NCBI GenBank assembly: GCA_945637645.1
Contig: CALZDK010000002.1
Coordinates: 1 to 33,918 of the forward strand
Source of the DNA: an uncultured Prevotella sp.
GTDB taxonomy: Bacteria; Bacteroidota; Bacteroidia; Bacteroidales; Bacteroidaceae
Length of the DNA: 33,918 nucleotides
Direction of reading: 5' to 3'
The position numbers and the translations under genes are program-made. The notes under the pieces were generated by a model. That model worked only from the letters and a program-made list of their open reading frames with translations. It made no database searches and was not told where the DNA came from. Shown one piece after another: positions 27,117 to 33,859 of the stretch. Numbering within the stretch: the stretch's first letter is position 1; each line of letters opens with the position of its first letter.

Positions 27117-27150
27117 ATGCCATTTTGACGGAATATGATGCCATTTTGAC
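27117..27150 (+). repeat. Tandem 13-mer ATGCCATTTTGAC x2, 21-bp period, upstream of clpB sigma-54-like promoter
   Basis: Identical 13-mers at 27117-27129 and 27138-27150. Confidence 0.8.
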
Positions 27151-27163
27151 ATAAGTGCAGTGA

Positions 27164-27179
27164 TTGGCACGGCTATTGC
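27164..27179 (+). promoter_or_regulatory. Sigma-54 (-24/-12) promoter of clpB
   Basis: TTGGCACG-GCTA-TTGC, matching YTGGCACG-N4-TTGC with GG-N10-GC spacing. Confidence 0.75.
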
Positions 27180-27233
27180 GGGAGAGCGGATAGAGAAAAA
27201 ACACTAATAAACAAAAAAGAAAGGAGTCAAGAC

Positions 27234-29828
27234 ATGACATTCGACAAATTCACAATCAAGGCTCAGGAGACCGTCCAGGAGGCGGTGAACCTGGCACAGA
27301 GTTCAGGACAACAGTCCATAGAGCCTGTCCATTTGCTGAAAGCAATAATGACCAAGGCAAAGGATGTGACGGGCTTCATATTCCAAAAGTTGGGAGTGAA
27401 CGCCAAACAGGTGGATATGCTCGTGACGCAGGAGATAAGTCACCTGCCTCGCGTGCAGGGCGGACAACCCTATCTCTCTAACGACACCAACAACATTCTC
27501 CAAAAAGCCACAGACATATCACAGAAGATGGGCGACCAGTTTGTGAGCGTAGAGCCGATGCTGCTCGCTATTGTTGGAGCCAACACCACCGCAAGCCGAA
27601 TACTAAAGGACGCAGGATGCACGGAGAAGGAGATGCGCAAAGCGATAGACGAACTGCGCCAAGGACAGAAGGTGCAGTCGCAGTCGGCTGACGACAACTA
27701 CCAGAGCCTTTCGAAATATGCCAAGAACCTCGTGGAGGAAGCACGCCAGGGAAAACTCGACCCAGTGATAGGTCGTGACGACGAGATAAGGCGTGTGCTG
27801 CAAATTCTCTCGCGAAGAACAAAGAACAACCCTGTTCTCATAGGCGAGCCGGGTACGGGAAAGACAGCCATTGTGGAAGGCTTGGCAGAGAGAATTGTGA
27901 GGGGCGACGTGCCTGAAAACCTTAAGGACAAGCAACTCTTCTCACTTGACATGGGAGCTCTGGTTGCAGGAGCGAAATACAAGGGTGAGTTTGAGGAACG
28001 TCTGAAATCGGTAATCAACGAGGTGACAAAGAGCGACGGACGCATCATCCTCTTCATCGACGAGATACACACACTTGTTGGTGCCGGAGGCGGCGAGGGA
28101 GCCATGGACGCAGCAAACATTCTGAAGCCAGCACTTGCCCGTGGTGAGTTGCGAAGCATCGGTGCAACGACACTGAACGAATACCAAAAGTATTTCGAGA
28201 AGGACAAGGCTCTCGAAAGAAGATTCCAGACTGTGATGGTGGACGAGCCAGACGAGCTGAGCGCAATTTCCATACTTAGAGGCTTGAAGGAACGCTACGA
28301 GAACCACCACAAGGTGCGTATTCAGGACGATGCCTGCATAGCCGCTGTCCAACTGTCGGAACGCTACATCAGCGACCGTTTCCTCCCCGACAAGGCTATC
28401 GACCTCATGGACGAGGCTGCCGCCAAACTGCGGATGGAGCACGACTCTGTACCAGAGGAGCTCGACGAGACAACACGCCGACTCAAGCAACTGGAAATAG
28501 AGCGTGAGGCGATAAAGCGCGAAAACGACACGCAGAAGTTGGAACAGCTTGACAAGGACATTGCCGAACTGCGCGACAAGGAGAAACAATATCGGGCAAA
28601 ATGGGAAGGCGAGAGAGCTCTCGTAAACCGTATTCAGGACGATAAGCAGCAGATGGAGAATCTTAAGTTGGAGGCGGAACGTGCCGAACGCGAGGGCAAC
28701 TACGAGCGTGTGGCAGAGATACGATACAGCCGACTGAAGATGCTTGAGGACGACATCAAGAAGATTCAGGAGCAACTGCGTTCCACTCAAGACGGCGAGG
28801 CAATGGTACGCGAGGAGGTGACAGCCGACGACATAGCCGAGGTTGTGAGCCGCTGGACAGGAATCCCAGTAACACGAATGATGCAGAGCGAGCGCGAAAA
28901 GCTGCTACATCTTGAGGAGGAGCTGCACAAGCGCGTAATTGGCCAGGAGGAGGCAATATCAGCCGTGAGCGATGCCGTCAGACGTAGCCGGGCAGGTCTT
29001 CAAGACCCAAAGCGTCCTATCGCCTCGTTCATATTCCTTGGCACCACAGGTGTGGGAAAGACAGAGTTAGCGAAAGCGTTGGCAGAATATCTGTTCAACG
29101 ACGAGACGATGATGACACGTATCGACATGAGCGAATATCAGGAGAAGTTCAGCGTGACAAGGCTCATCGGTGCGCCTCCTGGATACGTAGGTTACGACGA
29201 GGGCGGGCAACTCACCGAGGCAGTAAGACGCAAACCATACTCTGTAGTGCTCTTCGACGAGATAGAGAAAGCTCACCCCGATGTGTTCAACATACTGCTA
29301 CAGGTGCTCGACGACGGTCGTCTGACCGACAACAAGGGTCGTACGGTAAACTTCAAGAACACCATTATCATAATGACGTCAAACCTTGGCAGTCAGATGA
29401 TTAATGAAGAATTAAGGAAGAAGAATGAAGACTCTTCTTTCGACCCAGAGTTCATCAATTCGCTCAAGAACAAGATTCTCGATATGCTGAAGCAGACGAT
29501 ACGTCCGGAATTCCTCAACAGAATAGACGAGACGATAATGTTCCTGCCTCTGAGGAAGGACGAGATAGCCAACGTGGTGCGCCTGCAGATAAACGCCGTA
29601 CGACGCATGCTCGAGCCACAGGGCTTCCAGCTCAACGTCACGGACGCAGCCATAGACGCACTTGCCACCGAGGGCTACGACCCGGAGTTTGGCGCACGAC
29701 CTGTGAAACGTGCCATCCAGCGCTGCATCCTCAACGACCTCTCCCGTAAGTTGCTCTCCGAGGAAGTGTCGCGTGAGAAACCGATAACGATAGATGCCGC
29801 AGAAGGACGTTTAGTTTTCAGAAACTAA
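27234..29828 (+). CDS. clpB: ATP-dependent disaggregase ClpB
   Basis: MTFDKFTIKAQETVQEAVNLAQ; two Walker A (GEPGTGKT, GTTGVGKT), middle coiled coil; AAAGGAG RBS at 27220. Confidence 0.98.
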   Translation: MTFDKFTIKAQETVQEAVNLAQSSGQQSIEPVHLLKAIMTKAKDVTGFIFQKLGVNAKQVDMLVTQEISHLPRVQGGQPYLSNDTNNILQKATDISQKMGDQFVSVEPMLLAIVGANTTASRILKDAGCTEKEMRKAIDELRQGQKVQSQSADDNYQSLSKYAKNLVEEARQGKLDPVIGRDDEIRRVLQILSRRTKNNPVLIGEPGTGKTAIVEGLAERIVRGDVPENLKDKQLFSLDMGALVAGAKYKGEFEERLKSVINEVTKSDGRIILFIDEIHTLVGAGGGEGAMDAANILKPALARGELRSIGATTLNEYQKYFEKDKALERRFQTVMVDEPDELSAISILRGLKERYENHHKVRIQDDACIAAVQLSERYISDRFLPDKAIDLMDEAAAKLRMEHDSVPEELDETTRRLKQLEIEREAIKRENDTQKLEQLDKDIAELRDKEKQYRAKWEGERALVNRIQDDKQQMENLKLEAERAEREGNYERVAEIRYSRLKMLEDDIKKIQEQLRSTQDGEAMVREEVTADDIAEVVSRWTGIPVTRMMQSEREKLLHLEEELHKRVIGQEEAISAVSDAVRRSRAGLQDPKRPIASFIFLGTTGVGKTELAKALAEYLFNDETMMTRIDMSEYQEKFSVTRLIGAPPGYVGYDEGGQLTEAVRRKPYSVVLFDEIEKAHPDVFNILLQVLDDGRLTDNKGRTVNFKNTIIIMTSNLGSQMINEELRKKNEDSSFDPEFINSLKNKILDMLKQTIRPEFLNRIDETIMFLPLRKDEIANVVRLQINAVRRMLEPQGFQLNVTDAAIDALATEGYDPEFGARPVKRAIQRCILNDLSRKLLSEEVSREKPITIDAAEGRLVFRN

Positions 29829-29847: not shown

Positions 29848-29880
29848 GAGGCAGGCCCTTTGTGGTCTGCCTCTTTTTTT
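29848..29880 (+). terminator. clpB intrinsic terminator
   Basis: GAGGCAGGCC-ctttgt-GGTCTGCCTC followed by TTTTTTT. Confidence 0.92.
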
Positions 29881-29948
29881 ATAAAAAGTTGGCGATTTAT
29901 TTTGTAGTTTCTGCAACTTTGCGTATATTTGCAGCCAAAATAAAAGCT

Positions 29949-32051
29949 ATGATAAACAAGCAACTCTTACAACCGGAATCTATTGTAATTATAGGTGGCT
30001 CCAACAACTACCACAAGCCTGGAGGAGCCATAGTGAGAAACATCCTTAACGGAGGCTACAATGGAACACTGCGTATAGTCAACCCAAAGGAGGACGAGAT
30101 ACAGGGCATAAAGGTGTTTCACGACATCAGCGAGCTGCCGCCAACGGAACTCGCTGTGCTTGTAATTCCTGCACCAATGTGTCCCAACACCGTAAAAGTG
30201 CTGGCGGAGACAAAAGAGGTGAAGGCATTCATCATCATCTCGGCAGGCTTCGGCGAGGAAACAGAGGATGGAGCGAAGCTTGAGGAAGAGATACTGGAAA
30301 CCTGCCGCAAGCACGACTGCGCTCTTATAGGCCCTAACTGCATCGGTCTGCTCAACAACCATCACCACAGCGTGTTCACCAAGCCCATTCCGCAGCTCAA
30401 CCCGCGTGGTGTTGACTTCATCAGCGGCTCAGGTGCCACGGCAGTGTTCATTCTTGAGTCGGCGGTGATGAAAGGTCTGCAGTTCAACTCCGTATGGTCG
30501 ATAGGCAACGGGAAACAGATAGGCATAGAGGACGTGCTGCAATATATGGACGAGAACTTCAACCCCGAAACCGACCCTACCATAAAGCTTCTATATATAG
30601 AGAACATCTCCAACCCCGACAAGCTCCTCTTCCATGCCAGCTCGCTCATACGCAAGGGCTGCCGCATAGCCGCCATAAAGAGCGGGTCGAGCGAGAGCGG
30701 AAGCCGTGCCGCATCGTCTCACACAGGAGCCATTGCCACCAGCGACTCCGCCGTGGAAGCCTTGTTCCGTAAGGCGGGAATAGTGCGTTGCTTCTCGCGC
30801 GAGGAACTGACCACCGTGGGCTGCATATTCACCTGTCTGCCACCTATCACCTCTCAGAGCTCACCACTCACCACTGAGCCTACCCTCTCACGTTTCGCCA
30901 TCGTTACCCATGCTGGAGGCCCAGGAGTGATGCTCACCGACGCACTGTCGAAGGGAGGTCTGCAAGTGCCGCAGTTCACTGGCGAGGCAGCCGAGGAGCT
31001 GAAGTCGAAACTCTATCCCGGAGCGTCGGTGGCAAATCCGATAGACATTCTCGCCACAGGCACTCCCGAACATCTTGCAACAGCGATAGACTATTGCGAA
31101 AACCGCTTCGACGAGGTGGACGCCATAATGGTTATATTTGGAACTCCTGGATTGGTGAAGCTCTTCGAGACCTACGATGTGCTTCACAAGAAGATACTGG
31201 AATGTAAGAAACCTATATTCCCCATCCTTCCCTGTCTCCACACGGCAGGACCCGAAGTGGCAGAGTTTCTGAAGAAGGGGCATGTGAACTTCAGCGACGA
31301 GGTTACCCTTGCCGTTTCGCTCTCCCGCATAATTTCCACTCCCAATCCCGCACGACCAGAGATAGAGCTATTCGGAGTGGATGTGCCACGCATTCGCGAC
31401 ATCATCTCCAGTGTCGAGAATGATGGTTTCGTTGAGCCAAACATAGTGCGACAGCTCTTCGAGAGTGCAGGCATTCCCATGGTACCTGAGAAGGTGAGCA
31501 ACGATAAGCAACAACTCGTGGAGTTTGCCGAAAAGACAGGCTATCCCGTTGTGGCAAAGGTGGTTGGACCGTTACACAAGAGCGACGTTGGAGGCGTGGC
31601 TCTCAACATCCGCAGTGCGGAGCATCTTGCACTGGAGTTCGACCGCATGATGAAGATTGAAGGCGCACACTCAGTAATGGTACAGAAGATGCTTCGTGGC
31701 AAGGAGCTGTTCATTGGCGCAAAATACGAGACACGCTTCGGTCATGTAGTGCTTTGCGGCATGGGCGGCATATTTGTAGAAGTGCTGAAGGACGTGTCGA
31801 GCGGTCTTGCTCCGCTTAGTTACGAGGAAGCCTCATCTATGATTCACTCCCTGCGCGCCTACAAGATCATCCGTGGCACACGCGGTCAGCAAGGCATCAA
31901 CGAGAAGAAATACACTGAAATAATTGTACGTCTCTCCACCCTACTCCGCTTCGCCACCGAGATAAAGGAGCTGGACATCAATCCATTGCTCGCCGATGGC
32001 GACGACATAGTGGCAGTGGATGCGAGAATAAGAATTGAGAAAAACAAATAG
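29949..32051 (+). CDS. Acyl-CoA/acetate-CoA ligase, NDP-forming (CoA-binding + ATP-grasp)
   Basis: LLQPESIVIIGGSNNYHKPGGAIVRNIL; PNCIGLLN; SGSGATAV; C-terminal ATP-grasp YPVVAKVVGPLHKSDVGGVALNI; ORF-track start lies in clpB terminator, so ATG 29949 preferred. Confidence 0.93.
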   Translation: MINKQLLQPESIVIIGGSNNYHKPGGAIVRNILNGGYNGTLRIVNPKEDEIQGIKVFHDISELPPTELAVLVIPAPMCPNTVKVLAETKEVKAFIIISAGFGEETEDGAKLEEEILETCRKHDCALIGPNCIGLLNNHHHSVFTKPIPQLNPRGVDFISGSGATAVFILESAVMKGLQFNSVWSIGNGKQIGIEDVLQYMDENFNPETDPTIKLLYIENISNPDKLLFHASSLIRKGCRIAAIKSGSSESGSRAASSHTGAIATSDSAVEALFRKAGIVRCFSREELTTVGCIFTCLPPITSQSSPLTTEPTLSRFAIVTHAGGPGVMLTDALSKGGLQVPQFTGEAAEELKSKLYPGASVANPIDILATGTPEHLATAIDYCENRFDEVDAIMVIFGTPGLVKLFETYDVLHKKILECKKPIFPILPCLHTAGPEVAEFLKKGHVNFSDEVTLAVSLSRIISTPNPARPEIELFGVDVPRIRDIISSVENDGFVEPNIVRQLFESAGIPMVPEKVSNDKQQLVEFAEKTGYPVVAKVVGPLHKSDVGGVALNIRSAEHLALEFDRMMKIEGAHSVMVQKMLRGKELFIGAKYETRFGHVVLCGMGGIFVEVLKDVSSGLAPLSYEEASSMIHSLRAYKIIRGTRGQQGINEKKYTEIIVRLSTLLRFATEIKELDINPLLADGDDIVAVDARIRIEKNK

Positions 32052-32959: not shown

Positions 32960-33491
32960 CGTCCTTCCACACGTCGCCAAGCAAGGCAGCACCTCCGAAT
33001 CCCATAGCCTCCACAAGGGGTATTCTCTCCCATGAAATGCCGCCAAGAGCAATCACGCTGTCATCTATGACACCGCTCTTTGCGGCATTTTCTATGTCCA
33101 TATGCGAGAATGCCGAATGGTAGCCTTGCTTCGATATGCTGTCGAAAATGGGACTCATGAAAACGTAGTCACACTTTAGTTTACGCTCCGCCACCTCCTC
33201 TATTGAATGGCACGAAGCGGACAACTTAGGCACCTTGACCAATGGCACATTTGGGTTCCTTCCGTTAAGGTGTACTCCGCAGCCATACTCCGAGGCAAGA
33301 CAATGACAATCGTGTAGCGACAGTTTCCCATACCACCTACTGTCTATTGCCTCTATCAGTTCACGATGTTCCTCCACCGAAGCTCCCGGCTTGCGTATAT
33401 GCACCCTGTCAACTCCATTCTCAAATAAGGAGTTAATAAACATGCCCTCGTCCGTAATGAACTGTGGGAGAGTAATTACCATTATTTGCAT
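32898..33491 (-). CDS. Thiamine phosphate synthase / TenI-like protein
   Basis: FENGVDRVHIRKPGAS...LSLHDCHCLASEYGCGVHLN...YVFMSPIFDSISKQGY...VIALGGIS TIM-barrel phosphate-site motifs; alternative start 33482. Confidence 0.85.
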   Translation of the reverse strand: MQIMVITLPQFITDEGMFINSLFENGVDRVHIRKPGASVEEHRELIEAIDSRWYGKLSLHDCHCLASEYGCGVHLNGRNPNVPLVKVPKLSASCHSIEEVAERKLKCDYVFMSPIFDSISKQGYHSAFSHMDIENAAKSGVIDDSVIALGGISWERIPLVEAMGFGGAALLGDVWKDVTLFCRNLRQTHLGRTTARP

Positions 33492-33859
33492 TACCGTTTA
33501 TTTTTAATTTCAATAATCTTGTTAACAATCGATTGTGGTTGTTCAAAAACCACCTTGTTTTCAAATCTGATAATATTTATTCCGTAATACTGTAACAAGA
33601 ATTTTTCCCTATCAATATCATTCTCTTTAGCACCACCATAATAATGATAATCTCCATCCAACTCTATACCTAATTTCAACTGAGGACAATAAAAATCAAT
33701 AATATATCTATCAACACTATATTGCCTACGAAAAGACATACCATCAATATGTTTGCCCTTAAGCAGTTTCCACAATGTACATTCTGCAGGAGTACTATTT
33801 TTGCGTAACTGCCTTCTAAAGTACTTCATTTCTGTTTGATTCTTCTTATGTTCTGACAT
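33491..33859 (-). CDS. DUF559 domain protein (PD-(D/E)XK nuclease-like fold)
   Basis: LRKNSTPAECTLWKLLKGKHIDGMSFRRQYSVDRYIIDFYCPQLKLGIELDGDYHY. Confidence 0.9.
   Translation of the reverse strand: MSEHKKNQTEMKYFRRQLRKNSTPAECTLWKLLKGKHIDGMSFRRQYSVDRYIIDFYCPQLKLGIELDGDYHYYGGAKENDIDREKFLLQYYGINIIRFENKVVFEQPQSIVNKIIEIKNKR

Follow-up and report, generated by a model that had tools for sequence, protein, structure and literature searches.

The clpB locus and its upstream elements

The window, by which we mean the whole 33,918-nucleotide stretch of DNA analyzed here, derives from an uncultured Prevotella sp. whose genome is available as a 1.77-Mb, 66%-complete assembly; judged by ClpB, its nearest named relatives are Prevotella. 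On the forward strand, clpB (27234–29828) encodes an 864-aa disaggregase, identified from its open reading frame and Pfam domains and confirmed as a true family member by TIGR03346 (1319.9 bits; cut-off 1232.1). Between 55 and 117 bp upstream of the gene lie a promoter-like element and two copies of a 13-mer, also on the forward strand. The element, TTGGCACGGCTATTGC (27164–27179), sets GG (27166–27167) and GC (27178–27179) ten nucleotides apart and consists of a −24 part, TTGGCACG (27164–27171), and a −12 part, TTGC (27176–27179). The 13-mer ATGCCATTTTGAC occupies 27117–27129 and 27138–27150, with 21 bp between the starts of the copies. Direct reading of the DNA thus reproduces exactly both the sigma-54 element with GG-N10-GC spacing and the identical paired 13-mers of the original prediction. 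That prediction also saw a dyad-like arrangement in each copy, which holds in full for the proximal one (TGCCATTTTGACA, 27139–27151), where the symmetric unit is TGCCA-TTT-TGACA; the distal dyad (TGCCATTTTGACG, 27118–27130) ends in G, one mismatch to TGNCA-N3-TGNCA.

Taking sigma-54 geometry (GC at −13/−12) as the only guide, transcription would start at 27190–27191, which predicts a clpB leader of about 43 nt in which AAAGGAG (27220–27226) precedes the ATG as the likely ribosome-binding site. Relative to this predicted start, the dyad centers fall at about −67 and −46, in agreement with the earlier estimates of −66 and −45; the proximal dyad is our proposed activator operator. No sigma-70-type promoter was found between 26900 and 27400. 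A terminator-like hairpin with a T run follows clpB (29848–29880, forward strand); it was read by eye, with no program score, and on this reading clpB is probably transcribed alone. We found no conserved neighbors of clpB. The next annotated gene, CoA-ligase-like (29862–32051), has a listed GTG start at 29862 that falls inside this hairpin, so its true start probably lies further downstream. At the contig end, a DUF559 (PF04480) endonuclease-like protein is encoded on the minus strand (33491–33859).

These elements are rare in their own genome. The window holds no further copy of ATGCCATTTTGAC within two mismatches and a single exact YTGGCACGN4TTGC; in the available 1.77-Mb, 66%-complete genome, the exact form TTGGCACGN4TTGC likewise occurs once, and the core TGCCATTTTGAC is found exactly only at the two 13-mer positions.

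A dyad–promoter composite before chaperone genes

For comparison we collected the DNA upstream of clpB in members of the same family and in 80 named genomes, which gave 106 distinct regions. A rigid TGGCA..TTGC consensus matched few clpB relatives, and inspection led to a dyad-anchored form with a looser −12 part, namely TGNCA-N3-TGNCA (at most one mismatch), 5–25 bp, and then GGYA-N6-TTG. This composite is present in 55 of the 106 regions, a count that is partly circular because the pattern was fitted on the same sequences and for which the order-wide and phylum-wide scans described below serve as the independent test; it is present in none of the sequences in each of 20 dinucleotide-shuffled sets or in the reversed set. 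The gap from dyad to GGYA is 12–14 bp in 46 cases and 23–25 bp in nine. Among named species, the composite precedes clpB in Prevotella jejuni (L097), P. veroralis (L082), and Hallella colorans (L083), for example. The closest relative (L077; ClpB 90% identical) keeps both 12-mer cores and their 21-bp spacing unchanged, with TGGCACAAGGGTTGT as its promoter sequence; in many relatives there is a single dyad. On this comparison, the dyad is more broadly TGNCA-N3-TGNCA, of which the paired 13-mers represent the version of a single lineage. As for the conservation expected upstream of orthologous clpB genes, the GG, the TTG, and the dyads recur in many Bacteroidales; the final C and the paired 13-mers are not general.

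A gene-blind search for exact matches to the composite (dyad TGNCA-N3-TGNCA, 12–14 bp, GGCA-N6-TTG) across 295 Bacteroidales genomes returned approximately 140 matches, as against 4 for the same pattern written backwards. We examined the first downstream gene at 110 of these, naming gene clusters through representatives (Pfam, NCBIfam) and sequence. A chaperone gene lies directly downstream at 93 of the 110 sites: htpG at 39, grpE at 25, a clpB/clpC-type gene at 14, hsp20 at 8, dnaK and groES at 3 each, and groEL at 1. The other targets are members of the thioredoxin/thioredoxin-reductase group (4), PF04298 zinc peptidases (3), secA (2), ferritin (1), and genes without a clear link to stress (7). 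The ATG mostly falls 20–90 nt past the TTG. In the genome that harbors the window, clpB and dnaK each follow an exact composite, and groES and clpC follow versions with one mismatch. When 299 genomes drawn from the whole phylum were scanned, matches concentrated in the class Bacteroidia, with counts outside it close to those for the backwards control; of the 27 new loci that we read, most lie before grpE, whereas htpG accounts for two and dnaK for one.

Because the composite precedes chaperone genes both order-wide and in the genome itself, the clpB site appears to be one member of a heat-shock regulon, and these comparisons support a control that spans this regulon and is not special to clpB. 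The original prediction had placed clpB under sigma-54 plus activator control, unlike the sigma-32, HrcA, or CtsR control known in other bacteria; its sigma-54-type module stands and widens to the regulon, and the scan it suggested before groESL, dnaK, htpG, and hsp20 proved strongly positive, order-wide as well as in the window's own genome. The same data bear on whether the site could be a chance resemblance without function. By simple base counting, a 12-base match is expected about 0.2 times in 1.8 Mb, and loose −24/−12 matches are no commoner in the window than in shuffled sequence. The significance of the site therefore comes from its conservation in clpB upstream regions (55 of 106) and from the independent order-wide scan, not from the lone 12-base match. 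Conservation, chaperone specificity, and phasing all contradict a coincidence, against which the blind order-wide scan already spoke, and we regard that explanation as negligible.

Among the less expected targets, a zinc metallopeptidase (PF04298; about 229 aa) is repeatedly found directly behind the composite (L183, L201, L204, L400) and is possibly an unrecognized heat-shock protease. SecA is found in the same position in one family (f11; L197, L198), which suggests stress control of protein export there.

Promoter class and helical phasing

When clpB upstream regions are aligned on exact dyads, GG peaks at gaps of 12, 13, and 14 bp (n = 7, 18, and 3, respectively), whereas each remaining gap between 0 and 26 bp has 0–2 occurrences. 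Anchoring on GG alone (24 sequences), CA still follows, and TTG emerges at +10 to +12 (T 100%, T 100%, G 83%). In the order-wide set, positions left free by the search pattern are also biased: T precedes GG in 95% and TTG in 84%, and the base after TTG is A in 57%, C in 23%, and T in 16%. The arrangement GG-N10-G is the signature of sigma-54 promoters, and it is kept in the relatives; the final C of the canonical GC is not. The E. coli pspA promoter likewise does without this C. Since the final C of the −12 part is not conserved, the near-perfect −24/−12 consensus in the window is, by these alignments, not typical of the regulon, and the departure from canonical GC at −12 is our main reason for caution about the sigma-54 assignment.

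That departure also leaves some room for a different reading, in which the −24/−12-like element is recognized by the Bacteroidetes housekeeping sigma factor or an ECF sigma factor and the dyad is an ordinary activator or repressor site. Bacteroidetes housekeeping promoters have −33 and −7 elements spaced roughly 25 bp apart, and the distance from the TTTG at the dyad center to the TTTG of the −12 part, about 25 bp, roughly matches this spacing. However, dyad centers are AAA as often as TTT, so no fixed TTTG exists there; no TA stands two bases before the downstream TTTG, and what is conserved instead is GG-N10-G, with T before GG in nearly all members; and the window matches the canonical −24/−12 sequence exactly. 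We therefore hold a different sigma factor to be improbable. The housekeeping promoter proper (TTTG, then TAnnTTTG at −7) was rejected as a candidate, as the window reads GGCTATTGCGG and the regulon lacks a conserved TA at that place.

Returning to the sigma-54 reading, RpoN itself is encoded in the window's own genome (contig C56), with core-binding and DNA-binding domains, and in 238 of 243 high-quality Bacteroidales genomes, which answers positively whether the factor is available. Four of the five RpoN-negative high-quality genomes (G218, G225, G246, G251) still carry composites; RpoN is likely missing from these through assembly gaps because same-genus relatives of three of the four have it. 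As a discriminating test, RpoN absence proved uninformative, RpoN being near-universal and the few absences fitting assembly gaps. Control by HrcA/CIRCE was rejected for this genome, in which no HrcA was found; none was found in 166 high-quality Bacteroidales genomes either, and a single lower-quality genome is the only one with HrcA across the order.

Spacing adds a second line of evidence. Before clpB, dyad-to-GG distances cluster at 12–14, 23–25, 33–35, 45–46, and 55–56 bp. Part of the larger distances are the tandem copies themselves: among 47 clpB composites, a second dyad lies 20–21 bp upstream of the first in 15 and 31–33 bp upstream in 7. The 23–25 bp class also includes separate cases that have no site at 13, several of them from Phocaeicola. 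The dyads thus stand, in these alignments, at whole helical turns from the predicted promoter and from one another, a phasing that fits binding of a protein to a single face of the helix.

A candidate activator and a proposed mechanism

The window's own genome contains one bona fide enhancer-binding protein (contig C6); weaker matches are other AAA+ proteins, including ClpB. The protein has a PF00158 AAA+ domain from residue 15, with a Walker A motif and a GSFTGA loop, and an HTH_8 domain at residues 377–414; no N-terminal sensor domain was found. A GSFTGA or GAFTGA loop and a C-terminal Fis-type HTH typify activators of this kind. Its gene adjoins lptE, and in relatives secG follows. The protein matches PspF and NtrC-family structures and resembles the PspF/phage-shock system of Enterobacteria in combining a sensor-less AAA+ activator, a C-terminal HTH, sigma-54 promoters, and a stress response. 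It differs in that the targets proposed for it are cytoplasmic chaperones, the operators lie at about −46 and −67, and its score against the PspF family TIGR02974 (258.7 bits) is below the cut-off of 443.55; because of this score it works at most like PspF and is not an ortholog.

Six near-complete genomes yielded no enhancer-binding protein other than the lptE-linked one, and composites or close variants are nonetheless present: before dnaK and clpB in G056; clpB in G119 and G219; htpG, grpE, and clpB in G128; htpG in G166; and clpB and grpE in G307. If these are sigma-54 promoters and no activator was missed, the lptE-linked protein must serve them. By elimination, though not by proof, it is the best candidate activator. 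Four other single-activator genomes (G101, G185, G317, G334) yielded no convincing composite in a two-mismatch scan with the gap fixed at 13 bp. Two incomplete genomes, G190 (74%) and G293 (68%), have composites and RpoN, and no activator was found in them.

A competing assignment keeps the sigma-54 promoter and has the dyad bound by another enhancer-binding protein, or by a non-AAA+ regulator that aids an activator acting from solution. Many Bacteroidales have 2–11 enhancer-binding proteins, some that are about 390 aa long lack a terminal HTH, and we saw neither an operon link between the lptE-linked activator and chaperone genes nor a composite near the activator gene that would tie it to the regulon through autoregulation. 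The near-complete genomes in which the lptE-linked protein is alone and composites persist speak against this assignment, which we consider unlikely. We lean instead, with some reserve, toward a single master activator of the heat-shock response in Bacteroidia, the lptE-linked, sensor-less, PspF-like protein, which would work together with sigma-54 from helically phased dyads whose position so near the promoter is unusual.

The broader reading, that the clpB site is a sigma-54 (RpoN) promoter of a class Bacteroidia heat-shock regulon with an activator at phased dyads, seems to us very probable, and the original proposal of sigma-54 plus activator control of clpB gains support from sequence comparison: the composite is conserved, chaperone-specific, and phased, rpoN and a suitable activator are present, and HrcA is absent. 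From these observations we infer sigma-54 use, the identity of the activator, and induction by protein-folding stress. RNA polymerase with RpoN would wait at −24/−12 as a closed complex, and an AAA+ enhancer-binding protein, for which the lptE-linked protein is the best candidate, would sit on the dyads on the same DNA face and open the complex by ATP hydrolysis under protein-folding stress. We speculate that a partner protein may keep the sensor-less activator inactive, in the way that PspA restrains PspF. Several points count against this model: C is the minority base at the end of the −12 part, the activator gene is unlinked to chaperone genes, one ortholog has a degenerate loop, enhancer-binding proteins do not usually bind so near the promoter, some genomes with composites yielded no RpoN or no activator, and four single-activator genomes gave no convincing composite.

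Independent support comes from a PSSM survey (Carrera-Reyna et al. 2025, PMC12316311), which, in the passages found, places these gene families of Bacteroidota under predicted sigma-54 control, with sigma-54-type promoters enriched before GroEL, GroES, IbpA, GrpE, DnaJ, DnaK, HSP90, and COG0542, and cites a Blattabacterium genome paper for sigma-54 dependence of grpE and groES. On the evidence of those passages, sigma-54 control of Bacteroidota chaperones is an already published prediction, and the target families are the same as ours; they do not describe the operator, the phasing, or the activator. We found no report of these three in the literature searched beyond that survey, a search whose coverage mostly excluded subscription journals. 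Compared with the HrcA/CIRCE, CtsR, and sigma-32 systems, the kind of target gene is alike, but HrcA is absent here, operator and promoter type differ, and control appears to be positive, via sigma-54. The literature searched yielded no established master regulator of Bacteroidales heat-shock genes. With a conserved operator, a promoter class, and a candidate activator to work from, the question becomes directly testable, for example in a tractable species such as Bacteroides thetaiotaomicron. If correct, the model would make sigma-54 the driver of a core regulon of cytoplasmic chaperones, an uncommon role for this factor, and the lipopolysaccharide-assembly gene lptE might connect the response to envelope assembly.

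Several activator sequences deserve mention in their own right. The degenerate loop, GAYTDA, belongs to an lptE-linked activator (L320/L340; G344, contig C10) whose genome has five exact composites. In L282, L289, L291, L296, and L318, which are Bacteroidales enhancer-binding proteins of roughly 390 aa, the chain stops directly behind the AAA+ domain and no HTH is recognizable. In the window's own genome (L041; G000, contig C6, 295–2046, minus strand), activator and LptE form a single open frame of 583 aa in which the HTH_8 (377–414) runs into LptE (450–578); in relatives a stop separates the two genes, and the single frame reflects a true fusion or else a fault in the assembly.
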